DNA from: a bacterium
GTDB taxonomy: Bacteria > Sysuimicrobiota > Sysuimicrobiia > Sysuimicrobiales > Segetimicrobiaceae
Direction of reading: 5' to 3'
DNA: 64,000 bases
Assembly (NCBI GenBank): GCA_035307765.1
Contig: DATGHU010000023.1
Coordinates: forward strand, 62,001 to 126,000
Position 1 is the first letter of the stretch. Every line of letters begins with the position of its first letter. Made by a program: the position numbers and the translations under genes. This document shows positions 4,470 to 60,161 of this stretch, piece after piece. The notes under the pieces were generated by a model. It did no database searches. It worked only from the letters and a program-made list of their open reading frames with translations, and was not told where the DNA came from.

Positions 4470-5141
4470 ATGACCCGATCCCTCGACGGGCTCTTGGCGT
4501 GGGGAACCTTTGTCACCATGCTCTGCGCCTTGTTCGGAGCGTTCGTGTTCGCCCAAACCGAGCAGGTGATGGGAGACATCCAGCGCATCTTTTACGTGCA
4601 CCTCCCGCTTGCCTGGATCAGCTTCCTGGCCTTTGGGCATGCCTGCTGGGCGGGGGTGCAGTATCTGCGGACCGGCCGCGGCGAATGGGACGCGGTCGGC
4701 GCGTCGGCGGCGGAGATCGGGGTGCTGTTCAGCACGTTGGTGATTGTGACCGGTTCGCTGTGGGCGCGCCCGGTGTGGGGGGCGTGGTGGACCTGGGATC
4801 CGCAACTGATGACCTACCTGATCCTCTGGCTGATTTACGTCGGGTACCTGATGCTGCGCAGCGCCGCGGGGGACGATCTCCGGCGGGCCCGCTTCGCCGC
4901 GGTCTTCGCGATCGTCGGGTTCGTCGACGTGCCGCTGGTGTGGTTCTCCGCGCGGTACCTGCGCGCGCTCTCCCCGGTGATCTTTTCCACGCACAGCATC
5001 GGCCTCGCGCCGTCGATGGCCTGGGCGTTGCTCGCGGGACTGGTGGCGTGGAGCCTCTTCTATGCGTTGCTGTTCCGGTCCCGGCTCCGCCTCGGGTTGC
5101 TGGAAGCGCAGGTGGCGAACCTCGTCGATGAGGGCGCCTGA
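4470..5141 (+). CDS. ccmC: Heme export/handling protein CcmC
   Basis: A 223-residue inner-membrane protein with about six transmembrane helices. The tryptophan-rich heme-binding segment WGAWWTWDPQL near residue 110 is the WWD signature of the CcmC/CcmF heme-handling family, flanked by conserved His positions (YVHLPLAW before, STHSIG after). In System I cytochrome c maturation, CcmC loads heme onto CcmE on the outer face of the membrane. It starts 37 bases after a strong promoter and is followed after one base by a CcmD-like gene, then ccmE and ccmF. Genes for the ABC subunits CcmA and CcmB are not in this operon. Confidence 0.93.
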   Translation: MTRSLDGLLAWGTFVTMLCALFGAFVFAQTEQVMGDIQRIFYVHLPLAWISFLAFGHACWAGVQYLRTGRGEWDAVGASAAEIGVLFSTLVIVTGSLWARPVWGAWWTWDPQLMTYLILWLIYVGYLMLRSAAGDDLRRARFAAVFAIVGFVDVPLVWFSARYLRALSPVIFSTHSIGLAPSMAWALLAGLVAWSLFYALLFRSRLRLGLLEAQVANLVDEGA

Positions 5142-5142
5142 G

Positions 5143-5313
5143 ATGGCCTACCTCTTCTGGGCGTTTGCCGTCGTCTGGATCGGGATCTTCCTCTACCTCT
5201 ACGGGCTGGTCCGGCGCAGCCGCGCGCTGGAGCGCGAGGTGGCGGAGTTGCGCGCGAGGACGCGGGCGGGCGGCCCGGCACGGCCGGCGCGCCCGGGCGG
5301 GGGCGGATCGTGA
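5143..5313 (+). CDS. Small CcmD-like membrane protein
   Basis: A 56-residue protein with one N-terminal transmembrane helix (AYLFWAFAVVWIGIFLYLY) followed by a basic and acidic amphipathic stretch and a Pro/Gly/Arg-rich tail. CcmD proteins are small single-helix proteins that hold CcmC and CcmE together, and the position between ccmC and ccmE fits this exactly. The sequence is too short for firm family assignment. The ATG lies one base after the ccmC stop, and the stop codon overlaps the ccmE start. Confidence 0.75.
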   Translation: MAYLFWAFAVVWIGIFLYLYGLVRRSRALEREVAELRARTRAGGPARPARPGGGGS

Positions 5314-5729
5314 TGGGACGGACGCGCCCGGTTGTGTTCGTGGGCGGGGTGGTCGTCATCGTCCTGGCGTTGGCGTACCTCGTCTACGGCGGAATCCAGC
5401 AAGGCGCCACCTACTGGGTGACCGTCGGCGAGCTGCTGTCGAAAGATCCATCCGTCCCGCAGGACCGGGTCCGCCTGGGGGGAACGGTCGTCCCGGGATC
5501 GGTGACCTGGGACGGTTCCCACCAGCACCTGCGGTTCGCTGTGACCGACGGGGCGAAATCGATCCCGGTCCGCTACAGCGGGATCGTTCCCGACATCTTC
5601 CGCGAAGGCCGCCAGGTGGTCGTGGAGGGTCGCCTCACGTCGGATGGGGCGTTTGCCGCGACGACGCTGCTCGCGAAGTGCCCGACCAAGTACAACCCGG
5701 CCGATCCGCAGGGGCAGGTCCCGCGGTGA
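5313..5729 (+). CDS. ccmE: Heme chaperone CcmE, Cys-type (CxxxY)
   Basis: A 138-residue protein with one N-terminal membrane anchor (about residues 7-25) and a beta-barrel OB-like domain. CcmE binds heme covalently before passing it to CcmF. In the usual type the ligand is the His of HxxxY; here the matching position reads CPTKY (Cys123, Tyr127). The Cys variant is known from archaea and some deltaproteobacteria, where it goes with a maturation system lacking CcmH. Start and stop overlap the neighbouring genes, which supports translational coupling. ATG at 5313 is preferred to the in-frame GTG at 5310. Confidence 0.9.
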   Translation: MGRTRPVVFVGGVVVIVLALAYLVYGGIQQGATYWVTVGELLSKDPSVPQDRVRLGGTVVPGSVTWDGSHQHLRFAVTDGAKSIPVRYSGIVPDIFREGRQVVVEGRLTSDGAFAATTLLAKCPTKYNPADPQGQVPR

Positions 5730-5744
5730 GAGGACACCTCGTCC

Positions 5745-7733
5745 GTGGCTGACCTCGGACGGTTCAGCCTTCTCGCCGCGTTCGTCCTGGCGTTGTACGC
5801 ACTGCTGGCGGCGGCCCTGGGCGGTCGCGCGCGGCGGCCAGAGATCATCCAAAGCGCCGCGCGGGCGCTGTGGGCGGTTGCCGCGCTTGAGGTCGTCGCC
5901 GCCGCGGTGCTTGCTTTGGTTCTCGCCCGCCGCGACTACACGTTCACCTACGTGGTCTCCCACGTCAGCAACGCCCAGGCGCTCGTGTACGACCTCACCT
6001 CCTTCTGGGGGGGGATGGAAGGATCGTTGCTCCTGTGGGCGCTGATCCTGTCCGCCTACACGGTGTTGGTCGTCCGCGCCGTCGGACGCGATCATCCGCG
6101 GCTCCTCCCCGGGGTGATCGGCGTGTGCGCCGGCGTGGCCGCGTTTTTCCTGTTCATGCTCACACGCGTGACCTCGCCGTTTGTGACCACCCCGTTCCCG
6201 CCCGCGGACGGGCGGGGCATGAACCCCTTGCTCCTCAATCCGTGGATGGCGATTCACCCGCCCACCTTGTACCTGGGGTTTGTCGGCCTCACCGTCCCCT
6301 TTGCTATTGTCATCGCCAGCCTGCTCGAGGGCGCGGTCGACGAGGGCGGCGTGCTCCTCGCGCGCCGCTGGATGATGTGGGCGTGGTACTGCCTGAGCAT
6401 GGGGTTGATGTTCGGGGCGAAGTGGTCGTACGTGGTCTTGGGATGGGGCGGGTACTGGGCGTGGGACCCGGTCGAGAACGCGGCGTTGATGCCGTGGCTG
6501 GTGGCGACGGCGTTTCTGCACTCCGTCATGATTCAGGAACGGCGGGGGATGCTCAAGCAGTGGACGGTGCTGCTCGTGGTGTTGGCCTTTGGGCTCTCGA
6601 TCTTCGGCACCTTCCTCACCCGGAGCGGGGTGCTGAGCAGCATCCACTCCTTTACGCAGTCGCCCCTGGGCACGTATTTCCTGGTGTTCCTCGCCGCCGT
6701 CATGTTGGCCGCCTTCGGGCTGGTCGCCTGGCGGTGGGAAGCGCTCCGCAGCGAGAACACACTGGACTCCGCGCTGTCTCGGGAGAGCGTGTTCCTGTTG
6801 AACAACGCGGTGTTCTTGGCCACGGCCTTCACCGTGTTCCTCGGCACGGTGTTCCCGGTGGTGTCCGAGGTGCTCACCGGCCGAAAGATCAACGTCGGCC
6901 CCCCGTTCTTCGCGCATGTCGTGACGCCGCTCGCGCTGGTCCTCCTGCTCCTGATGGGGGTGGGCCCGCTCATCGCGTGGCGGCGCGCCTCGCCGGCTAA
7001 CCTTCGCCAGAGCTTCCTGACGCCGGGAGCCGTCGGGGTGGCGCTGGGGCTCGGCCTGCTGGCCGCCGGAATGCGCGTGCCCGGCGCGGTGCTCACGTTC
7101 ACGCTGTGCGGCTTCGTTGCCGGCACGATCGGCCTTGAGTTCGCCCGGGGGATCCGCGTCCGCCGCGCGCATCAAGGGGAGGGGCTGGTCCGGGCGTTCC
7201 TCGGCCTCGTCCTGCAAAACCGGCGTCGGTACGGGGGGTACACCGTGCACCTCGGGATCCTGCTGTTGTTCGCCGGCCTCACCGGATCTTCGGTCTTCAG
7301 CACCCAGCGCCTGGTGACGCTCCACCCGGGCGAGACGGTTCGGATCGGCGAGTACCGGGTGCGGTTTGACGGCCTCCGGCAGTCGACCAATGGCGGCGCG
7401 CTCGTCATCACGGCGGGACTGCGCGCGTTTTCTGGCGAGCGGGATCTCGGCGCCCTCGAGGCCCGCCGCAACCTCTTCTTGGCCGGCGAGGATTCGACCA
7501 CCGATGTGGCGCTGCGGAGTACCCTGCGTGATGATTTGTACGTGACCCTGACGGGCTGGACCGACAAGGGGGACGCCACGCTTCGCCTTTTGGTCAACCC
7601 CCTGGTCGCGTGGCTGTGGATCGGGGGTCTGGTGATCTCCGCCGGGGCGGCGATCGCCATGCTCCCCGAGCGGCGGGCGGTCAGGGTCGTGCAACCCGTT
7701 CTGGGCGGGGCGTGGAGCCCCGGAGACATGTGA
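5745..7733 (+). CDS. ccmF: Cytochrome c-type biogenesis protein CcmF (heme lyase)
   Basis: A 662-residue polytopic membrane protein of the CcmF/NrfE size class. The WWD-like heme site WGGYWAWDPVENA lies near residue 240, followed by a histidine-bearing helix and many further transmembrane segments. A periplasmic domain is seen toward the C-terminus (about residues 520-620) before a last helix. CcmF takes heme from CcmE and ligates it to CxxCH motifs. Start is GTG at 5745, with GAGAGGA upstream. The stop overlaps the next gene (TGATG). Client proteins in the window include two diheme cytochromes. Confidence 0.93.
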   Translation: MADLGRFSLLAAFVLALYALLAAALGGRARRPEIIQSAARALWAVAALEVVAAAVLALVLARRDYTFTYVVSHVSNAQALVYDLTSFWGGMEGSLLLWALILSAYTVLVVRAVGRDHPRLLPGVIGVCAGVAAFFLFMLTRVTSPFVTTPFPPADGRGMNPLLLNPWMAIHPPTLYLGFVGLTVPFAIVIASLLEGAVDEGGVLLARRWMMWAWYCLSMGLMFGAKWSYVVLGWGGYWAWDPVENAALMPWLVATAFLHSVMIQERRGMLKQWTVLLVVLAFGLSIFGTFLTRSGVLSSIHSFTQSPLGTYFLVFLAAVMLAAFGLVAWRWEALRSENTLDSALSRESVFLLNNAVFLATAFTVFLGTVFPVVSEVLTGRKINVGPPFFAHVVTPLALVLLLLMGVGPLIAWRRASPANLRQSFLTPGAVGVALGLGLLAAGMRVPGAVLTFTLCGFVAGTIGLEFARGIRVRRAHQGEGLVRAFLGLVLQNRRRYGGYTVHLGILLLFAGLTGSSVFSTQRLVTLHPGETVRIGEYRVRFDGLRQSTNGGALVITAGLRAFSGERDLGALEARRNLFLAGEDSTTDVALRSTLRDDLYVTLTGWTDKGDATLRLLVNPLVAWLWIGGLVISAGAAIAMLPERRAVRVVQPVLGGAWSPGDM

Positions 7734-7996
7734 TGGGGGTGGCGCTGGTGCTCCTGGCGGCGGCGGCCGCCGCCTGGGTACTCGCTCCGCTCCTTCGTCC
7801 CGCTCCCATCGCCGGGGCGGAGGTGCTCTCGGTAAGCGAGGGATTGCGGCGTCCGTCCGCGGCGGAGCAAGCCCTGCGCGATCTCGAGTTCGACCACGCC
7901 ATGGGGAAGGTGGGGGTCGAGGACTACGCCACCCTTCGCGCCGGATACGAGGCGGCGATCGCCGCGGACGGACGCCCGGCCGGGGGGGCGCGATGA
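7733..7996 (+). CDS. Small membrane protein of ccm operon (CcmI-like N-terminal segment?)
   Basis: An 87-residue protein with a single N-terminal helix followed by a soluble segment containing RPSAAEQALRDLEFDHAMGK and GVEDYATLRAGYEAA. The pattern of a membrane anchor plus 'ALRDLEFDxxxGKLxxxDYxxLR' is common to the N-terminal part of CcmI-like and other ccm-linked small proteins, which may help present apocytochromes. It overlaps the ccmF stop by one base. No Cys pair is present, so it does not replace CcmH. Assignment rests on context and on this motif. Confidence 0.65.
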   Translation: MGVALVLLAAAAAAWVLAPLLRPAPIAGAEVLSVSEGLRRPSAAEQALRDLEFDHAMGKVGVEDYATLRAGYEAAIAADGRPAGGAR

Positions 7997-9323: not shown

Positions 9324-10199
9324 ATGCGGTTGCGGAATTTCGAGGCCGGGCCTGGAGCGCTGCTGGTACTGATCGCCTCGGTCGCCCTCGCCGGATGTCA
9401 GCCCTCGGTGAATGTCTCGGATGCCAAGGTCGACCGGCGGCTGCCGCCCCCGCAGTCGGTCGAGATCCCGTTGGTCACCGACGAGAACGAACAGCCGATT
9501 GTCCCGGACGCGGTCAAGGGGAAGCAGGTCTTCGAAGCGAACTGTGCGGTCTGCCACGGGATGAGCGGAACGGGAAACGGCCCGATGTCAAAGTCGCTCG
9601 TCGCCCCGGACATCGACGTCCTCACCGCGTTCCTGGGCTTGTTTGGGATCACCCTGCACCGCACGCCCCTCCCCAGTCACCCCGCCGACTTCACCAATCG
9701 AGATCTGGAGAACGTCATCTCGCCGGCGATCCTGTTTGAGACCGTCACCGAGGGGCGGCCGCATACGGCGATGCCGGCGTTTGGCCCGGAGGCGTCCTTT
9801 GGGGCGAACAAGGCGCAGACCCTCAAGAACGAAGAGCGGTGGGATGCCAACGCGTACGAGATGACGTTCCGCACCAACCCGGCGGAACTGAGCGCGGCGA
9901 AGGCGTTATACGATCAGCAGTGCGCGGTGTGCCACGGGGAGAACGGCGACGGCAAAGCCCCGCGCGGCTCAGAGATGGCGGCCGAGCTGTGGTCGTGGTC
10001 CCGCGGGGAAGGACCGGGGATCTTCACCGACCTCAACTACATTGTGCAGCGGAACCCGAGCGAGCTCACCAACGCCATCCTGGACGGGCAGGGGTTTGGG
10101 CTGATGCCCGGCTATCGGGGGAAGCTCACGACGGGGCAAATCAACGGGCTGGTGGACTACATCTACTCGTTCTTCTACAAGCACCCGCCGATCAAGTAG
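9324..10199 (+). CDS. Diheme c-type cytochrome lipoprotein of bc-like complex
   Basis: About 291 residues with a lipoprotein signal: MRLRN, a hydrophobic stretch and lipobox VALAGC (Cys25). Two class I cytochrome c domains follow, each with CAVCH (near residues 74 and 202); the spacing and the MSGTGNG and ENGDGKAP loops are typical. Likely distal Met ligands lie in TAMPAFGP and GLMPGYRG. It should accept electrons from the Rieske protein encoded next and pass them to a terminal oxidase or soluble carrier. ATG at 9324 is preferred because GGAGG precedes it; an in-frame ATG at 9306 would add six residues. Confidence 0.9.
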   Translation: MRLRNFEAGPGALLVLIASVALAGCQPSVNVSDAKVDRRLPPPQSVEIPLVTDENEQPIVPDAVKGKQVFEANCAVCHGMSGTGNGPMSKSLVAPDIDVLTAFLGLFGITLHRTPLPSHPADFTNRDLENVISPAILFETVTEGRPHTAMPAFGPEASFGANKAQTLKNEERWDANAYEMTFRTNPAELSAAKALYDQQCAVCHGENGDGKAPRGSEMAAELWSWSRGEGPGIFTDLNYIVQRNPSELTNAILDGQGFGLMPGYRGKLTTGQINGLVDYIYSFFYKHPPIK

Positions 10200-10242
10200 T
10201 ACAATTGGGCGGGCAGGGCGATGCGAGGAGGCGTTGGGGACG

Positions 10243-10878
10243 ATGAAGGCTGATCGACGGGGCTTGCTGAAAGCGCTCACCGCGCTTCCGGTGCTCGGTG
10301 GGCTGATCGCGATCCTGTCCCCGTTCTTTCGCTATCTGAAGCCCAACGACCAACCGTGGGGGATCTTCACGGTGGCCCCCGACACCCCGAAGGGCGGAGC
10401 CCAGATCGTGGGGAAGACGACCGCGCTGCAGAAGCCGTGGGACTCGTTCTACTTCACGTACGTCCAGAAGTACGTCCAGTACGACCCGACAGGGTTCAAG
10501 GCCGCCAACATCCCGGGGGTGGCGATCCGGCTGCCCCAGAAGGTGAAGTTCACGAACGTCCAAGGGTTCGTCGGGTACGACGGGGAGACCGACATCGTGC
10601 TCTTCCAGCGGATCTGCCCCCACCTGGGCTGCATCTTCGACTACGTCCCCGTCTGGCAAAACGTCACCTCGGGGTACGGCGGGTTCACCCCTCCCGCGAA
10701 TGAGCAGCATTCGCTGATGGCGTGTCCCTGCCACTTCAGCATCTACAATCCCGCGTATCCGGGCGATCCGGGAAACGTCATCTCGGGCCCGGCGCCGCGC
10801 GGGGCGCGCTACTTCCATTTCACGATCGATGGCGAGAACATCGTCGTGGACGGCGCGGAACTCGGCGGGATCGCGTGA
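10243..10878 (+). CDS. Rieske [2Fe-2S] protein of bc-like complex
   Basis: 211 residues. The N-terminus has a twin-arginine-like motif (DRRGLLKAL) followed by one hydrophobic helix, as in Rieske proteins exported folded by Tat and left anchored in the membrane. Cluster ligands are visible: Cys125 and His127 in CPHLGC, and Cys161 and His164 in CPCHF. Cys130 and Cys163 form the usual disulfide. Between the two halves lies a longer insert than in the shortest family members (about residues 131-158). The protein takes an electron from quinol and passes it to cytochrome c. The ATG at 10243 has GAGGAGG upstream. The tatA gene is also in this window (15754). Confidence 0.93.
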   Translation: MKADRRGLLKALTALPVLGGLIAILSPFFRYLKPNDQPWGIFTVAPDTPKGGAQIVGKTTALQKPWDSFYFTYVQKYVQYDPTGFKAANIPGVAIRLPQKVKFTNVQGFVGYDGETDIVLFQRICPHLGCIFDYVPVWQNVTSGYGGFTPPANEQHSLMACPCHFSIYNPAYPGDPGNVISGPAPRGARYFHFTIDGENIVVDGAELGGIA

Positions 10879-10933
10879 TGCCGCCCCGAGCGCAGGCGCG
10901 TCGGGAAGACCTCAGGGCGTAGGGAGGGGACCC

Positions 10934-12079
10934 GTGCAGGCGGTGCTGGCAGATCTCAAAGAGTGGTTCCAGGATCGCAAGGCGCACCTGGACCTCTTTG
11001 ATGAGACGAAGACCGCGCAGCTCGACAACCCGCTGTACAGCCTCGGCGGGCTGGTCTGGCTGTCGTGGATGGCCGTGATCGTCTCGGGGGTCATCCTGAT
11101 GCTGTGGTACATCCCGACGACGACCGGCGCCTACCGCTCGATTGAGCACATCACCTACGACATCCCGTTCGGTTGGCTGGTGCGCGGGGTTCACAAGTAT
11201 GCGGCGGACATGCTGATCACCTGCATCACGCTGCGCATCTATCGGATGTACTTTGCGGGAGAGTACAAGAAGCCGGGCGAGCTCTCGTGGATGATTCTCT
11301 TCGCCTCGCTCGTGCTCGGGATGATCTCCGGGATCAGCGGCTACCTGCTGATCTGGAACCAGCGGGCGTTCTGGGCGGCGAAGGTCGTGCTGACGGTGCC
11401 GACCTATTACGATGACATTCCCATCCTCGGCAACCTGGGGCTCGGCCGGGCGATCGCGTTCATCTTCCTCGGCGGCCCGGCCGTCAGCCAGGCGGCGATC
11501 ACCCGGTTCTACGCGATTCACTTCGGCATCTCCGTCGTGTTCGCGATCCTGGCGGAGGTCTTCTTCTACCGCACGCGGCGGCGTCGCCTGAACCTCTCCC
11601 CGTTTGTCATCGTGCTGGTGATCGCGTTCCTGGCGTGGGTGAGCTTCGAGCGCATCACGGACATGGGGCGGTGGGCCAACCCCAACCGAACGCCGCTCCC
11701 GATCCTGTCCGACTGGTACTTCCTGGCCCTCTACCAGCTCGTGAAGTACATGCCCCCGCTGTGGGCCGGCATCGCCCCGGCGCTGCTGATCGGGTACGGC
11801 ATGCTGGTCCCGTTCCTGGACCGGACGAAGGAGACCGGGCCGCTGGAGCGTCCCTTCTTCTTCGTCGTGGGCCTCTTGTCGCTGTTCTACTTCATCGCGT
11901 TCACGGCGCTGATCATGCTCAACATCGCCGTGATCAGCCGCGATCCACCGATCATCCTGGTCGTGACCGTGGTCGTCTTGGTGCTGGCCTTCGCCTGGGA
12001 GATTGCCTACCGTCGACGTAAGGCCCGACGGGCGACGGCGCCCCCTGCGCCGGCGCGGGCGGCCGCGGCGGGGGACTGA
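10934..12079 (+). CDS. Cytochrome b of bc-like complex lacking the bH heme ligands
   Basis: 381 residues with about eight transmembrane helices. The first four correspond to the cytochrome b/b6 core, and the rest resemble subunit IV. His87 (VRGVHKYAAD) and His196 (FYAIHFGI) sit where the two ligands of the outer heme bL normally occur. The positions 14 residues later, which should hold the two ligands of heme bH, are Arg101 (TLRIYRMY) and Phe210 (AEVFFYR). The quinol-site PEWY motif is replaced by SDWYFLALYQ. Thus only one b heme is expected. The start GTG at 10934 follows AGGGAGGGGA. It is the first of two cytochromes b in the operon. Confidence 0.88.
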   Translation: MQAVLADLKEWFQDRKAHLDLFDETKTAQLDNPLYSLGGLVWLSWMAVIVSGVILMLWYIPTTTGAYRSIEHITYDIPFGWLVRGVHKYAADMLITCITLRIYRMYFAGEYKKPGELSWMILFASLVLGMISGISGYLLIWNQRAFWAAKVVLTVPTYYDDIPILGNLGLGRAIAFIFLGGPAVSQAAITRFYAIHFGISVVFAILAEVFFYRTRRRRLNLSPFVIVLVIAFLAWVSFERITDMGRWANPNRTPLPILSDWYFLALYQLVKYMPPLWAGIAPALLIGYGMLVPFLDRTKETGPLERPFFFVVGLLSLFYFIAFTALIMLNIAVISRDPPIILVVTVVVLVLAFAWEIAYRRRKARRATAPPAPARAAAAGD

Positions 12080-12083
12080 CGCG

Positions 12084-12401
12084 ATGCGGCGGAAGGCGCG
12101 CTTTTACGCGCTGCTGGTCCTGGCGACCGTGGGGCTGAGCCGCCTGCTCGCTGCGTGGCGGGCCTGGCGTGCCGCGCCCACGCTGGAGGGCGGCCTGGTG
12201 GTGGCGGCCTTCGGCCTCGTGGTGGTCGGCGCGATCCTCTGGCTGGGGTTCGTGCTCTACGAGGTGGACAGGGCCGCCGGTCGGGTTCGCCACCGGGTCG
12301 GCGTGTACGAGTGGATCCTCGCCCGCCGGGTGGGGGCGCGGCGTCCGGATCTGGGCTGGCCGGAAGCGCCACGGACTCGGCCGGCCGGCGGCGGGAGGTG
12401 A
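12084..12401 (+). CDS. Small membrane protein in bc-like operon
   Basis: A 105-residue protein with two predicted transmembrane helices (about residues 7-25 and 37-60) and a basic Arg-rich C-terminal tail. No cofactor-binding residue pattern is visible. It starts 4 bases after the first cytochrome b, has GGGGA upstream, and overlaps the start region of the next small gene. By position it is probably an accessory subunit of the complex. No family recognised. Confidence 0.7.
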   Translation: MRRKARFYALLVLATVGLSRLLAAWRAWRAAPTLEGGLVVAAFGLVVVGAILWLGFVLYEVDRAAGRVRHRVGVYEWILARRVGARRPDLGWPEAPRTRPAGGGR

Positions 12402-12406
12402 GCGGC

Positions 12407-12601
12407 GTGGACGATCGGACGGCGGGGTACGGGACGTGGATCGCCGTTCTCGCTGTCGTCAGCCTGGTCTGCGTCGTCGGGATGGTGTGGGGTGAACTGA
12501 CCAGCCATCGTCTCGTCACCGGGGGGCTGATCGGCGTCGTGCTGCTCGCGTACTCCTTCATCCTGTTGTTCCTGCGCAAGGGAGGGTTTACGGGTGTATA
12601 A
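12407..12601 (+). CDS. Small two-helix membrane protein in bc-like operon
   Basis: 64 residues with two transmembrane helices separated by a short polar turn (WGELTSHRLVTGG). The GTG at 12407 is chosen because GGGAGGTG ends 6 bases upstream; a GTG at 12398 would be inside that site. Its stop overlaps the start of the cytochrome b-ferredoxin gene by 8 bases, which points to coupled translation and a subunit role. No family recognised. Confidence 0.65.
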   Translation: MDDRTAGYGTWIAVLAVVSLVCVVGMVWGELTSHRLVTGGLIGVVLLAYSFILLFLRKGGFTGV

Positions 12602-13769
12602 GCGGCTCCTGGCGCGCCTCCTGCGGTGGACGTTGAAACTCGACGTGGCCATCAACCGTGTCTACCCGGAGGATTTCAATCCCCTGTACTATACGGGAGG
12701 GCTGTCCAACCTCTTCCTCACGGTCCTGGTGCTCTCCGGGATCTTCCTGTTCTTCTACTACGTGCCGTCCTTCAACGACGCCTACACCTCGGTGCAGTAC
12801 ATCTCCGATCAGCTGCCGCCGCCCGCCCAGGTGCCGTACGGACAGATCATCCGCGGCATTCACCGCTACGCCGCCGATGGGTTCATCATCGTCATCCTGC
12901 TCCATTTCTTCCGGAACTGGTTCACGGAGCGATTCCGGTTCTCCCGCGATGAACCGTGGATCAGCGGCATGATGCTGCTCGTCTTCGCCGGCTTCATCGG
13001 CGTGACCGGGTACGTGTTGGTCTGGGACCAGCGCAGCGAGTTGATCGTGGCGATGACGGGGAACGCGTTGGGGTCGGTGCCGTGGGTGGGCGGATGGCTG
13101 CGCTCCGTCCTGTTCGGGGGGGAGGGGGTGACCAACCTGCTCCTGCCGCGGATGCTGTTCCTCCACGTTGGCCCGGCGACCGCGCTGTACGTCCTGCTGT
13201 GGTGGCACTACGTGCGCATCCGCCACCCCAAGGTCTGGCCGCCGGCGGTATGGACGCTGTTCTCGGTGGGGCTGATCCTGCTTCTTACCGGGTTGGTCCC
13301 CGCGGTCAGCCAGCCTTCGGCCTCGGCGGGGTCCACGCCTTCCCGCCTCGCGCTCGACTGGTTCTTCCTCCTCCCGTACGCGAGCCTTCAATACCTCCCG
13401 TCGCTCGGGCTGATCCTGCTCGCCGTCGTCATCGTCGCCTACGGGCTGTACATCCCGTACCAGCTGCCCGAGACCGAGCGGGAGCTGGGGATGCGGGACT
13501 CCGGGGTGGCGCAGGTCATCGACGCCAACTGCACGGGGTGCGAGCTCTGCTACTACGACTGCCCGTACGACGCGATCGTCATGGTCCCCACCCCGCATCC
13601 CGGCGTGACGAAGGCGGCCCAGGCCCGGAAGCTCCTGGCCATCGTCCTGGAGTCGCGGTGCGTGGAGTGCGGGATCTGCATCGGTGCGTGTCCCTTTGAA
13701 GCGCTGGAACTGCCCCACTACCTGGAATCGGACGTCCACGAAAAGGTGCTGGCCGCATGCCGGAGCTAG
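12594..13769 (+). CDS. Cytochrome b fused to a 2[4Fe-4S] ferredoxin domain
   Basis: 391 residues. Residues 1-290 form a cytochrome b-like membrane domain with all four heme ligands present at the right spacing: His90/His104 and His191/His205. A short segment with ALDWFFLLPYA occupies the place of PEWY. Residues 305-391 are a bacterial-type ferredoxin domain on the cytoplasmic side, with Cys313/316/319/323 (CTGCELCYYDCP) and Cys356/359/362/366 (CVECGICIGACP), enough for two [4Fe-4S] clusters. The start is GTG at 12594. The gene overlaps the following MvhD-like gene by 13 bases. I infer that electrons leave the inner heme to the clusters rather than only to quinone. Confidence 0.9.
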   Translation: MYKRLLARLLRWTLKLDVAINRVYPEDFNPLYYTGGLSNLFLTVLVLSGIFLFFYYVPSFNDAYTSVQYISDQLPPPAQVPYGQIIRGIHRYAADGFIIVILLHFFRNWFTERFRFSRDEPWISGMMLLVFAGFIGVTGYVLVWDQRSELIVAMTGNALGSVPWVGGWLRSVLFGGEGVTNLLLPRMLFLHVGPATALYVLLWWHYVRIRHPKVWPPAVWTLFSVGLILLLTGLVPAVSQPSASAGSTPSRLALDWFFLLPYASLQYLPSLGLILLAVVIVAYGLYIPYQLPETERELGMRDSGVAQVIDANCTGCELCYYDCPYDAIVMVPTPHPGVTKAAQARKLLAIVLESRCVECGICIGACPFEALELPHYLESDVHEKVLAACRS

Positions 13770-14305
13770 GGTCGACCCAGAAGCCCGCCCCCGGGGCGGG
13801 GACCCCGCCGGGGACGTCCTCCCACCGTCCCAAGATCGTCGGCTTCCTCTGCGACTGGGCGGTGAGCGCGGAGGGGTTAATCCGCGAGGACGGGACGATG
13901 CGCGATCTTCCCAACGTCACGTTGATCAGGGTGATGTGCTCGGGGTTCATCCGGCCGGCGTGGCTGGAGTTCGCGCTGCGGAACGGCGCGGAGGGAGCGT
14001 TCGTCTGCGGGTGTCCGCTCGGGGACTGCTTCAACCGGTTCGGGAACAACTTGATCGGCGACCGGGTTCTCCAGATGCGCCGGCGGCTCGAACGGCAAAA
14101 GATCCACCCGGACCGGGTGGCGACGATGTATTTCGGACTGCACGCCCAGGCCGAGTTCGTCACCGCCGTTCGGGAGTTCAGCGACCGCGTGGCCGGCCTG
14201 CCCGGCCCCGTCACGCCCCCCGCGCGCCCGGCGGCGCGCGCCGGCGCCCCCGGACAACCCCCCGCCGCGCGCCGCTCCGACGCGGGTGGGGAGGAGGGCG
14301 CGTGA
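13757..14305 (+). CDS. MvhD/FrhD-like hydrogenase-type iron-sulfur subunit
   Basis: 182 residues. The central region matches the MvhD family (small Fe-S protein linking [NiFe]-hydrogenase to heterodisulfide reductase in methanogens): GFLCDWAVSAEG, then IRVMCSGFIRPAW, then GAEGAFVCGCPLGDC. Cysteines 32, 61, 84, 86 and 91 are retained, but the second Cys of the usual CxWC pair is Ala35. The ends are Pro/Ala-rich and probably flexible. No hydrogenase or HdrA gene is nearby, so it likely serves the cytochrome b-ferredoxin fusion, whose gene it overlaps, as an Fe-S relay to a soluble partner. Confidence 0.85.
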   Translation: MPELGSTQKPAPGAGTPPGTSSHRPKIVGFLCDWAVSAEGLIREDGTMRDLPNVTLIRVMCSGFIRPAWLEFALRNGAEGAFVCGCPLGDCFNRFGNNLIGDRVLQMRRRLERQKIHPDRVATMYFGLHAQAEFVTAVREFSDRVAGLPGPVTPPARPAARAGAPGQPPAARRSDAGGEEGA

Positions 14306-14439
14306 TGGCGGAGCGCACGCCGTCCGGTCAGGCCAGGAGGCGATCGGCCGCGGTCCAATGGAAGTACCTCATCTTTTGGCTACTCCTCTTCGGCACGCTG
14401 TTCTTCATCTCGCTCTACGGCATCGTGGCGGAGGCGTAA
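14305..14439 (+). CDS. Single-helix small membrane protein at end of bc-like operon
   Basis: 44 residues: a basic N-terminal part followed by one transmembrane helix (YLIFWLLLFGTLFFISLYGI). Its ATG overlaps the stop of the MvhD-like gene (TGATG), and a strong hairpin follows 5 bases after the stop. Small single-helix subunits are common in bc1 and b6f complexes, so this is probably another accessory subunit. No homology can be claimed. Confidence 0.65.
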   Translation: MAERTPSGQARRRSAAVQWKYLIFWLLLFGTLFFISLYGIVAEA

Positions 14440-14545: not shown

Positions 14546-15580
14546 ATGGATCTCACCTCGATCTATGCTCCCGTGCGCGATGACCTGGACTCGCTGGGGC
14601 GGCTCCTCAGAGACGAGCTGTCGGCCGATGATCCCTTTGTCGGCGAGCTGGTGGCCCACGTCCTCAAGACCCGCGGCAAGTTCCTCCGGCCCGCTCTGGT
14701 GTGCCTCAGCGCGCTCTCCTGCCGCGCCATTCCTCCGAATATCGGGGTGGGGGGAACGGACGGAGTCCCCGCCCGTGCGGACGACGCCGGTGCCCGGCTG
14801 GAGGTTGCCGCCGCCACCGAACTGATCCACGTCGCCTCCCTGATTCACGACGATGTGATCGACGCCGCCGACCTCCGGCGGGGGCAGGCTTCCGTGAACG
14901 CGATTTGGGGCAACCAGGTCGCCGTGCTCTTGGGGGACTATCTGTTCAGCAAGGCGTTCCACTTGCTGTCGCGGCTGCAGGACGCCTCCCTCGCCGCCGC
15001 GATGGCGGCGGCCACGGTGAAGATGAGCCAGTCGGAGATCAAGCAGATCAAGTACGGGAATACGCCTCACACCGATGAGGCGATCTACTTCGACATCATC
15101 GCCGGGAAGACGGCGCACCTCTTCAGCGCCGCCTGCCGGTGCGGTGCGCTGACCGCCGGGGCCACCGAAGCGGAGACGACGGCGCTGACGACGTTTGGCT
15201 TGGAGTGGGGGATGGCGTTCCAGATCACCGACGACGCGTTGGACTTGACCGCCACCGCGGAGCAGGTCGGGAAACCGATCGGCAGCGACATCCAGACGGG
15301 CAAGGTGACGCTGCCGATCATCCACGCGCTCACCGTCGCCCCCCAGAACGACCGGCGCCGCCTTGAGGAGATTCTGGGGAGCGGCGACGGCGATCGGGCA
15401 CCCGAGGCGATGGGGGAGGTGGCGGCGATCCTGGCCCGGTGCGGCGCGATCGACCACGCCTTCGAGGTCGCCCGCCGCCGTGCCGAGCACGCCGCGGTGA
15501 GCCTGACCCGGCTCAGGGCCTCGGCCGCCCGGGAGAGCCTGGAGGCACTGGTCGAGTTCGTCACGGTGCGGAGCCATTAG
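14546..15580 (+). CDS. Polyprenyl diphosphate synthase (quinone side chain)
   Basis: 344 residues of the trans-isoprenyl diphosphate synthase family. The first aspartate-rich motif is DDVID (residues 102-106, in LIHDDVIDAADLRRG) and the second is DDALD near residue 228 (ITDDALDLT). These bind magnesium and the allylic diphosphate. Long-chain members make the prenyl tail of menaquinone or ubiquinone, which would fit the preceding quinol-oxidising operon. There is a small insertion near residues 65-85 compared with typical members. Chain length cannot be set reliably from sequence. The ribosome-binding site of the ATG is weak. Confidence 0.88.
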   Translation: MDLTSIYAPVRDDLDSLGRLLRDELSADDPFVGELVAHVLKTRGKFLRPALVCLSALSCRAIPPNIGVGGTDGVPARADDAGARLEVAAATELIHVASLIHDDVIDAADLRRGQASVNAIWGNQVAVLLGDYLFSKAFHLLSRLQDASLAAAMAAATVKMSQSEIKQIKYGNTPHTDEAIYFDIIAGKTAHLFSAACRCGALTAGATEAETTALTTFGLEWGMAFQITDDALDLTATAEQVGKPIGSDIQTGKVTLPIIHALTVAPQNDRRRLEEILGSGDGDRAPEAMGEVAAILARCGAIDHAFEVARRRAEHAAVSLTRLRASAARESLEALVEFVTVRSH

Positions 15581-15753: not shown

Positions 15754-15936
15754 ATGACGGGGAAGTTTTGGGAACTGATCATCATTCTGGCGATCATCAT
15801 CCTGGTCTTCGGCCCCAGCCGCCTCGCCGGTCTGGGCGGGGCGGTGGGGAAGGCGATGCGGGAGTTCCGCGAGGCCACCAAGCCCGAGGAACCAAAGCCG
15901 GTCACTCCGGATAAGGGCAGCGGAGAGAAAGGCTGA
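15754..15936 (+). CDS. tatA: Twin-arginine translocase pore protein TatA
   Basis: 60 residues: a short N-terminus, one hydrophobic helix (LIIILAIIILVFGPSRL) with the conserved FGP hinge, an amphipathic helix (GGAVGKAMREFREATK) and a charged tail. This is the complete TatA/E architecture. TatA oligomers form the passage for folded proteins; the Rieske protein at 10243 carries a Tat-like signal and is a likely client. GGAGGTG precedes the ATG, and a strong terminator follows, so it appears to be a single-gene unit. No tatC is in the window. Confidence 0.93.
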   Translation: MTGKFWELIIILAIIILVFGPSRLAGLGGAVGKAMREFREATKPEEPKPVTPDKGSGEKG

Positions 15937-24468: not shown

Positions 24469-25905
24469 TCCTGTCCCCTTAACGGATAAATGAAAATGTC
24501 ACCCTCTTGGGATCTGGAGCTGCTGTCGCCGAGCCGCGGCCAGCAGCGGCCGTCGCCACGGGTGATCGGGTGCCGGGATGCGTGGGGGACGACCTGGCTG
24601 CGCGTCCCCGTTCGGCGGGAGGGTATTCGGGGACGGTCCGGATTCCGCGCATCGATCTTGGGTCATCCTGAAGGGCCGGTGTCCAAGCGGGAGCCGCTTG
24701 GCGCTGAGCCGCTGGCCCTGATGGTAGATGGCGAGCGTGCCGTCGAGGAAGGCGTGGACATCGACCCGCGCGCCGGTGTAGCTGCGCCCGCCTGGGCCGG
24801 GAAGGACCTGAAGGAGGCCGCCGTTGAGCTGCACGGTGTTGTCGTGGGCGACGGTGCGTCGATACTTGAAGCAGCAGATGCGCGTGAGGTCGGCGGGCGC
24901 CGGCCGCCACGCGGGCTCCGGCTGGGCGGGCAGACGGGCGAAGCGCGCGTTGTAGCGGGGGCGGAAGCGGTCAAAGACGCGCTGGGCCTGGGGGAGGGTC
25001 CGCGCCTGCGCGAGGCGGAGTTCGACGACCAGCCGATCCTGAAAGGTGCCAAAGAGCCGCTCCACGCGGCCCGTACCTTGCGGCGAGGCGGCAGGGATCC
25101 AGCGGATGCCGAGTTCCTGGAGCGCGCGTCCGACCTGGGTCGAGGCGACCTCGCCCTCGAGCTGCTCCGCCAGGCCGTGCGGCGTGCGCGGATCGCGATG
25201 AAAGATGCCATGCCGATCCGTGTAGGCCGCGGCGGGCAGGCCATAGCGGCGGATGAGCTGGCGCAGCAGCAGGAAATAGCCGTGGGTATCCTCCGTGGGG
25301 CGAAAGACGCCCGCCAGCACCTCGCCGGTGGCATCGTCGATGGCGGCGAGGAGGACGAGGCGCGGGCCGCGATCCTCGAGCCAGGGATGGTCGCTACCGT
25401 CCATCTGGACGAGCAGACCGGCTTGCGGCATCCGCTCGCGGCGGCGGCGATGTTTGGGCGCTCGCCGGGTGCGGGGGCTCCCGATGCCCGCCTGGCGCAG
25501 CAGGCGCTGCACGGTGGGCCGGGACAGGCTGAGGCCCTCGTGCTCCCGGAGGAGCTCGGTGAGGTGGTGATCGTTCGCGCCAGCGTAGTGCGTGCGGGCC
25601 AGCGTGAGGACCTGCGTCCGAATGGCCTCGGCGAGGCGGCGGGGGGAGGCCCGTCCGCGGTTGCCATGGGCGAGCGCCGCCGGGCCGGCCAGGCGGACCT
25701 TCGCCAGCAGGCGCCGGAGGTGACGGAACGAGAGGCCCAGGAGGCGGGCCGCGTCAGGCACCGGGAGGTGCCCCTCGACGACCTGGACCAGGATATGGGC
25801 TCGTTGCTGCTCTCTCTTGCTCAAGGTGACTCTCCCCCTGTTCATGCTCCCAGGGTGACAGAATCATTGATCTGTAAGGGGGTGACAGAATCATTGAGCT
25901 ATTAC
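24454..25905 (-). mobile_element. Complete insertion sequence, IS1202/ISNCY-like, 1452 bp
   Basis: Bounded on both sides by an exact 18-bp direct repeat. The two ends form an imperfect inverted repeat: 17 of the outermost 22 bases match, including TCAATGAT and CTGTC. The right end also carries two 17-bp copies of GGTGACAGAATCATTGA 27 bases apart (25854-25870 and 25881-25897), likely transposase-binding sites. One transposase gene fills the element on the minus strand. Long target duplications are known for the IS1202 group. The exact duplication and intact transposase suggest recent insertion. Confidence 0.9.
24499..25845 (-). CDS. DDE transposase, IS1202/ISNCY-like
   Basis: 448 residues. 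The N-terminal third has helix-turn-helix character (VPDAARLLGLSFRHLRRLL). The integrase-like core has Asp149 in LLVQMDGSDHPWLEDRG, Asp210 in YTDRHGIF and Glu262 in GTGRVERLFGT, a plausible DDE triad. The 'DGSxHxWLExRG' pattern is characteristic of the ISNCY/IS1202 group. The C-terminal 60 residues are Pro/Arg-rich. The ATG at 25845 has GGGAG too close to it; a TTG at 25824 with AGGGGGAGA upstream is a credible alternative start giving 441 residues. No frameshift or stop is present. Confidence 0.88.
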   Translation of the reverse strand: MNRGRVTLSKREQQRAHILVQVVEGHLPVPDAARLLGLSFRHLRRLLAKVRLAGPAALAHGNRGRASPRRLAEAIRTQVLTLARTHYAGANDHHLTELLREHEGLSLSRPTVQRLLRQAGIGSPRTRRAPKHRRRRERMPQAGLLVQMDGSDHPWLEDRGPRLVLLAAIDDATGEVLAGVFRPTEDTHGYFLLLRQLIRRYGLPAAAYTDRHGIFHRDPRTPHGLAEQLEGEVASTQVGRALQELGIRWIPAASPQGTGRVERLFGTFQDRLVVELRLAQARTLPQAQRVFDRFRPRYNARFARLPAQPEPAWRPAPADLTRICCFKYRRTVAHDNTVQLNGGLLQVLPGPGGRSYTGARVDVHAFLDGTLAIYHQGQRLSAKRLPLGHRPFRMTQDRCAESGPSPNTLPPNGDAQPGRPPRIPAPDHPWRRPLLAAARRQQLQIPRG

Positions 25906-49119: not shown

Positions 49120-49203
49120 GTCCTTCCGAACAGGCAAACCCGAAGCAATTCGGGGACGCAACGCCACGGGACCCTCGCGGTCAGCCGGGCTGCCGAAGAG
49201 GAC
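49120..49203 (+). promoter_or_regulatory. Cyclic-di-GMP-I (GEMM-I) riboswitch aptamer, pilin operon
   Basis: The RNA carries the GEMM-I core: GGCAAACC (49133-49140), a CCCGAA/TTCGGG stem capped by the GNRA tetraloop GCAA (49145-49148), the GGACGCAACGCCACGGG segment (49154-49170) and GTCAGCCGGGCTGCC (49180-49194). The closing stem pairs GTCC (49120-49123) with GGAC (49200-49203). A terminator hairpin follows at 49221, then a pseudopilin operon. The class senses cyclic di-GMP (a related variant senses cGAMP). Very similar to the element at 60067. Confidence 0.9.
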
Positions 49204-60066: not shown

Positions 60067-60161
60067 GCTCCGTACAAGGGCAAACCCAGAGAGATCTGGG
60101 GGCGCAAAACCACGGGACAGGCCAGCGAAGAGCTGGCAAGTCAGCCGGGTTGCCGGAGAGC
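60067..60161 (+). promoter_or_regulatory. Cyclic-di-GMP-I (GEMM-I) riboswitch aptamer, sigma/LC7/PilB operon
   Basis: Core elements: GGCAAACC (60079-60086), stem CCCAGA/TCTGGG with GNRA tetraloop GAGA (60091-60094), GGCGCAAAACCACGGG (60101-60116) and GTCAGCCGGGTTGCC (60140-60154), with GCTCC (60067-60071) pairing to the GGAG-AGC segment near 60155-60161. The same modules and order as at 49120. It lies in the leader of a gene for an alternative sigma factor, followed by MerR, two LC7 proteins and a PilB-like ATPase. Confidence 0.9.

Follow-up and report, generated by a model that had tools for sequence, protein, structure and literature searches.

A lopsided Rieske/cytochrome b operon with a ferredoxin-MvhD cassette in the phylum Sysuimicrobiota

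The window analysed here is a 64,000-nucleotide stretch of contig DATGHU010000023.1 (GenBank assembly GCA_035307765.1, positions 62,001 to 126,000 of the forward strand), from a bacterium of the family Segetimicrobiaceae in the phylum Sysuimicrobiota, formerly CSP1-3, whose genome amounts to 3.8 Mb in 51 contigs. On its + strand, at positions 9324-14439, it carries a complete, real and conserved operon for an unusual variant of the Rieske/cytochrome b complexes, which appears to serve the phylum as its own complex III (quinol:cytochrome c oxidoreductase), in a lopsided form with an added cytoplasmic iron-sulfur (Fe-S) "plug". This reading draws on gene content, conserved order, the retention and loss of ligands and motifs, the homology of one cassette and co-occurrence across genomes. 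The genes run from a diheme cytochrome c through a Rieske protein, a first cytochrome b (b-1), small membrane proteins A and B, a second cytochrome b fused to a 2[4Fe-4S] ferredoxin domain (b-2) and an MvhD/FlpD-like protein to small membrane protein C (Table 1); every part listed in the initial annotation, which was made from the letters of the window, was located. Family searches found no NAD(P)/FAD oxidoreductase subunit among the operon genes. The Rieske gene falls under the Pfam cut-off, yet it is matched by the NCBIfam b6f/bc1 Rieske models, and in an alignment of 24 sequences the cluster ligands (two Cys and two His) and the disulfide Cys are kept (CPHLGC...CPCH), as are the Ser and Tyr typical of high-potential Rieske proteins, with Tyr replaced by Phe in one ortholog.

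The two cytochrome b halves of complex III are normally identical. Here there are two non-identical genes in every locus, and b-1 and b-2 share about 27% identity. When aligned to the structures of cytochrome b6 and bc1, b-1 keeps the ligands of heme bL (H87 and H196) in 24/24 orthologs, and these are its only two conserved His; the ligands of heme bH are gone, with R101 in 24/24 and F, Y, M or L at position 210. Its quinol oxidation (Qo) region is invariant in all 24 (SDWY 259-262 at 11708-11719, WNQ, and FWAAK 146-150), and SDWY stands at the place of PEWY/PDWY with D-W-Y retained. The losses in b-2 are complementary: heme ligands H90, H104, H191 and H205 are invariant in 25/25 orthologs, while the PEWY position is degenerate (L/V/M/I-D-W/V/F/L-F/L) and the equivalent of FWAAK is lost. 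Thus b-2 follows the four-His rule that holds for every cytochrome b of canonical bc1/b6f complexes, whereas b-1 breaks it. The Cys35 of b6 that binds heme ci covalently is absent from both proteins (S/I/T/L/A in b-1, Tyr in b-2). Moreover, b-1 aligns best with cytochrome b6, and an AlphaFold2 model of b-2, good for the membrane part only, has six transmembrane helices and matches bc1 cytochrome b in Foldseek; from the topology of this model, the ferredoxin domain is predicted to lie on the cytoplasmic side. Two copies of b-1 would leave the complex without bH, and two copies of b-2 without a Qo motif that can be recognised. A b-1/b-2 heterodimer is thus the economical reading, and the simplest interpretation would be an asymmetric, heterodimeric complex III that has a single Qo site and a single heme wire across the membrane and opens to the cytoplasm through an Fe-S port. 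Of the whole finding, this asymmetry is the strongest part and the one that lends itself best to testing; the initial annotation, whose layout of the complex stands, had overlooked the loss of bH in b-1 and of Qo in b-2. If b-1 and b-2 were instead separate homodimers or several sub-complexes, merely co-expressed, this would agree with the occurrence of a b-2-like protein without Rieske in other phyla, and the mixed dimer is itself a deduction. However, a b-1 pair would lack heme bH and a route to the quinone site of the inner side, a b-2 pair would lack a recognisable Qo motif, and the complementary losses are phylum-wide and go with a strict 1:1 linkage of the two genes, so we consider such an arrangement quite unlikely.

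Gene order in relatives, which the initial annotation had proposed as a check with non-conservation counting against it, is the same in 39 of the 43 Sysuimicrobiota genomes, distributed over seven families, and given this conservation it is not due to chance. The gene for b-2 with its ferredoxin domain is found in 37 of the 43 (54-86% identity), preceded by cytochrome c, Rieske and b-1 and followed by MvhD; in the other two of the 39 (G004 and G019), cytochrome c, Rieske and b-1 run into a contig end. In this phylum b-2 always stands alongside Rieske, diheme c and b-1, and diheme c orthologs are present in every complete locus. One locus in which b-1 is missing at a contig end (L042) and a duplicate (L071) were left out of the counts. 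Relatives were also sought in genome contigs using two short patterns, NPLYYTGG and NCTGCELC, a search that misses relatives in which both are lacking. The operon is truly missing only in four genomes of one genus (G008-G011), and these four have no COX1 either; as this loss is one evolutionary event, the correlation between operon and COX1 is suggestive, not statistical. In G008, a genome of this genus (g11), where the asymmetric complex and COX1 were both lost, a Rieske-like protein and a cytochrome b adjoin a tetrathionate-reductase-like molybdoenzyme (L117:2794-8536). Furthermore, 16 genomes have exactly two PF00033 cytochromes b, namely b-1 and b-2, and eight of these (G013, G020-G022, G034, G038, G039 and G042) have COX1 without any NrfD, and hence no alternative complex III.

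The ferredoxin domain and MvhD together match the C-terminus of HdrA2 (approximately residues 568-770 of 777), split over b-2 and MvhD; the operon covers only this part, with no match to the FAD-binding bifurcation domain or to HdrBC. It is known that in HdrABC-MvhAGD electrons come in from MvhD via this ferredoxin domain (PMC9012536), and that the methylene-tetrahydrofolate reductase complex of Sporomusa has MvhD as the part that is linked to the membrane (PMC9430772). The earlier view of a complex resembling bc, which has an Fe-S wire on the inner side and an adaptor of the heterodisulfide reductase/hydrogenase type, is supported. That view had also noted that no hydrogenase lies nearby, and the finding extends to the whole of the window's own genome, where no NiFe hydrogenase exceeds the family cut-off and only a weak match typical of NuoD was found. 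The MvhD of the operon is the sole FlpD of this genome, and a hydrogenase as its partner was rejected, no FlpD-linked hydrogenase being found there. Alignments of 24 sequences and with MvhD structures in the PDB show four conserved Cys in MvhD/FlpD (the first is residue 32), with the second Cys of the canonical CNWC missing. The lack of this Cys, together with the lack of an identified partner enzyme, would fit a complex III of the usual kind, whose Fe-S appendage is regulatory or vestigial and conducts no electrons while the enzyme turns over; however, the eight ferredoxin Cys and the four MvhD Cys are invariant both phylum-wide and in related fusions, and this makes an idle appendage very improbable.

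The related fusions are single-chain cytochrome b-2[4Fe-4S]-MvhD proteins, found in metagenome-assembled genomes (MAGs) of Deltaproteobacteria and, by a plasmid search only, on a Defluviimonas plasmid. They have the same three modules as b-2 plus MvhD and four heme His, and b-2 groups with them with a support of 0.999 in FastTree (Shimodaira-Hasegawa-like support only). Their MvhD part also has four Cys and also lacks the second Cys of CNWC; an AlphaFold2 model of a Deltaproteobacterial fusion, poor as a whole with a predicted local distance difference test score of 56, was read only for this part. They differ from the Sysuimicrobiota proteins in having neither Rieske nor b-1 and in adjoining a subunit of the heme-copper oxidase type with the conserved ligand His. 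In loci L082-L100 and L038:7942-14060 the single-chain fusions lie by genes for CoxII, CoxI (with GHSSQQ replacing GHPEVY) and SCO, and this cluster is possibly an undescribed nitric oxide or O2 reductase with cytoplasmic electron input. Within Sysuimicrobiota, nine loci of families f3, f5 and f7 (L046, L049, L050, L054, L070, L073, L074, L076 and L081) have a COX1-like gene and two monoheme cytochromes c directly after MvhD. A catalytic oxidase was rejected for this gene, as it does not conserve His at the heme-copper positions that were compared; its product is possibly a dead oxidase subunit serving as scaffold or electron outlet. Both settings would suit a direct transmembrane route, in which the port sends electrons from bH to bL of b-2 and on to a periplasmic cytochrome c or oxidase with no quinone step, the Rieske/b-1 half being separate and conventional. 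Yet in Sysuimicrobiota b-2 is never seen apart from Rieske, diheme c and b-1, and b-1 without bH cannot run a Q cycle by itself, so that we regard this route as unlikely.

As to direction, the initial annotation had proposed quinol oxidation coupled to a low-potential Fe-S acceptor, running either forward (bifurcation) or as confurcation, and this part was not supported as regards outward ferredoxin reduction. With menaquinol at -74 mV, the acceptor at +250 mV and a membrane potential of 150 mV, calculation brings the second electron from menaquinol to only about -250 mV, which is not low enough to reduce either ferredoxin or NAD(P); for ferredoxin, the membrane potential would have to be low and the high-potential acceptor would have to lie near +400 mV. 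Electrons that come in from a low-potential donor run downhill in every case considered. A quinone-based bifurcation, with one Qo electron going to Rieske and cytochrome c and the other leaving outward via b-2 and the Fe-S port and reducing an acceptor of low potential in the cytoplasm, shares the layout of Qo, b hemes and inner-side Fe-S port, and has a precedent in anammox Rieske/cytochrome b complexes, for which bifurcation to an inner-side low-potential acceptor, NAD(P)H, was proposed and for which a Rieske potential above +300 mV was measured in Kuenenia (PMC12954380). By analogy such a Rieske potential would put NAD(P) in reach, and the Ser and Tyr kept in the Rieske protein here are consistent with a high potential. 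Against it stand not only the energetics but also that the same cassette is the input arm in HdrA and that the operon has no gene for an NAD(P) or ferredoxin reductase. On energetic grounds ferredoxin is an unlikely acceptor for outward bifurcation, and outward bifurcation as a whole seems to us rather unlikely; inward entry of low-potential electrons is favoured, although the sequence cannot settle the direction.

A possible donor is suggested by the gene content of the genomes. A 2-oxoacid:ferredoxin oxidoreductase of the POR family is present in 42 of the 43, with three alpha/beta pairs in the window's own genome (loci L120-L122), and the E1 component of 2-oxoglutarate dehydrogenase (OGDH) is absent in 39 of the 43. 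It is an observation in its own right that these oxidoreductases are near-universal, and OGDH E1 mostly absent, in organisms with heme-copper oxidases. RnfC has no match above the cut-off in 41 of the 43 genomes and the two matches above it are partial; Rnf is thus unsupported as a ferredoxin sink. In addition, complex I retains its NADH module. Taken together, these features mean that reduced ferredoxin needs a sink, and the Fe-S port could be one, as a hypothesis with no linked partner gene.

We assume the following mechanism. In a 1:1 heterodimer, b-1 and Rieske would hold the single Qo site, b-1 carrying heme bL only, and b-2 would hold the complete transmembrane bL/bH pair with no recognisable Qo motif. 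Electrons from Qo would pass from bL of b-1 to bL of b-2, then to bH of b-2 and the quinone-reduction side; since b-1 has no bH and the full heme pair is only in b-2, they would have to cross from bL to bL between the subunits. On the cytoplasmic side, b-2 would carry the electron-input cassette of HdrA2 (2[4Fe-4S] and MvhD). By way of this cassette, heme bH and the quinone may be fed by a soluble donor of low potential, a possible one being ferredoxin that 2-oxoacid:ferredoxin oxidoreductases have reduced, and each quinone reduced on the inner side could receive one of its electrons from Qo and the other from the port. For an asymmetric b-1/b-2 complex III with an inward low-potential Fe-S port our confidence is evenly balanced; for the fuller proposal, in which bL-bL transfer is obligatory, quinol and cytoplasmic electrons merge at a single inner quinone site and the enzyme is the main complex III of the phylum, it is more tentative and leans slightly to doubt. 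Several points weigh against this interpretation. The window's own genome has a second, conventional-looking Rieske/cytochrome b-c pair beside an oxidase, so the asymmetric complex is not the sole complex III there. The mixed dimer and its stoichiometry were deduced from sequence, menaquinone is our presumed quinone, and no gene adjoining the operon names a soluble donor. Moreover, both AlphaFold2 models are of low confidence in the ferredoxin region, so that a short distance from the ferredoxin clusters to heme bH is presumed, and ferredoxin may have other sinks (Nfn, FNR, or its use by complex I).

Among known systems, the bc1/b6f complexes likewise have Rieske, a c-type cytochrome and cytochromes b of the same fold, but the complex described here has two cytochromes b whose losses of heme ligands and Qo motifs complement each other, SDWY for PEWY/PDWY, a cytoplasmic 2[4Fe-4S] domain with MvhD, and no b6-type Cys for heme ci. 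The Rieske/cytochrome b complexes of the anammox bacterium Kuenenia (Kuste4569-4574 and Kustd1480-1485) resemble it in an inner-side redox module proposed to serve a low-potential cytoplasmic carrier; however, theirs is an NAD(P) oxidoreductase, with a split b6 and subunit IV and multiheme c (PMC12954380), whereas here there is no NAD(P) module but two full cytochromes b, the ferredoxin-MvhD cassette and a diheme c. The input arm of HdrA2 and HdrABC-MvhAGD is homologous and has the 2[4Fe-4S] domain and MvhD in the same order; the difference is that here the FAD bifurcating domain, HdrBC and hydrogenase are absent and the cassette sits on a membrane cytochrome b. Unusual Rieske/cytochrome b clusters, of other composition, are also present in Nitrospina and Methanoperedens. 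The engineered cytochrome b fusions of Rhodobacter bc1 are likewise asymmetric dimers, which probe the bL-bL bridge; they showed millisecond bL-bL transfer, whose meaning in living cells is debated (PMC4330944), and they are man-made, whereas the asymmetry here is natural and phylum-wide. In the open-access literature we found neither a natural pair of cytochromes b that divide the heme and Qo functions between them nor a complex of Rieske, MvhD/FlpD and cytochrome b described, in agreement with the earlier remark that no described complex of this composition was known to it; the description of the phylum was included, and the terms complex III, cytochrome b and quinol are absent from its text (PMC11604079). 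If the proposed mechanism is true, this would be a natural enzyme in which bL-bL crossing is the only route, and the in vivo question could be put to the test. Low-potential electrons from the cytoplasm would have their own port into such a complex III, and aerobes with ferredoxin-linked 2-oxoacid oxidation could respire ferredoxin without Rnf. The operon also shows the input arm of HdrA2 in a new use, attached to a cytochrome b of the membrane.

Table 1. Genes and domains of the operon and its neighbours (window positions; start codons were set by eye and conservation)
Feature	Position	Strand	Evidence and remarks
Cytochrome c maturation genes: CcmC-like, CcmE, CcmF, probable CcmH-like	4470-7996	+	PF01578, PF03100, PF16327; upstream context, outside the complex
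Diheme c-type cytochrome, predicted lipoprotein	9324-10199	+	Two CAVCH motifs, LAGC lipobox; PF13442/PF00034, two stretches
Rieske [2Fe-2S] protein	10243-10878	+	RR-type N-terminal signal/anchor; CPHLGC...CPCHFSIY; NCBIfam b6f/bc1 Rieske models
Cytochrome b-1	10934-12079	+	GTG start; 8 hydrophobic segments; cytochrome b N- and C-terminal domains
Small membrane protein A	12084-12401	+	105 aa, 2 hydrophobic segments; no family match; most loci have a homolog in this position
Small membrane protein B	12407-12601	+	64 aa, 2 hydrophobic segments; no family match; most loci have a homolog in this position
Cytochrome b-2 with C-terminal 2[4Fe-4S] domain	12594-13769	+	PF00033 and Fer4
2[4Fe-4S] domain of b-2	13509-13715	+	8 Cys, residues 313-366, all invariant; predicted cytoplasmic, after helix F
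MvhD/FlpD-like protein	13757-14305	+	PF02662, 85.5 bits against a cut-off of 22.3
Small membrane protein C	14305-14439	+	44 aa, 1 hydrophobic segment; no family match; found chiefly within the family of the window
Polyprenyl diphosphate synthase (quinone tail)	14546-15580	+	PF00348; context; adjoins the operon downstream in most loci
TatA-like protein (Rieske export route)	15754-15936	+	PF02416; context

The flanking genes for cytochrome c maturation, polyprenyl synthase and TatA fit the assembly of such a complex; the best NCBIfam match of the polyprenyl synthase is heptaprenyl synthase component II, below the cut-off. Elsewhere in the window, a transposase-like gene (24499-25845, - strand; helix-turn-helix and a weak integrase match) breaks a + strand run of housekeeping genes. 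In addition, two c-di-GMP-I riboswitches are present, one at 49123-49197 ahead of pilin-like genes (49324 on) and the other at 60069-60157 ahead of a gene for a sigma-70 family factor (60361).

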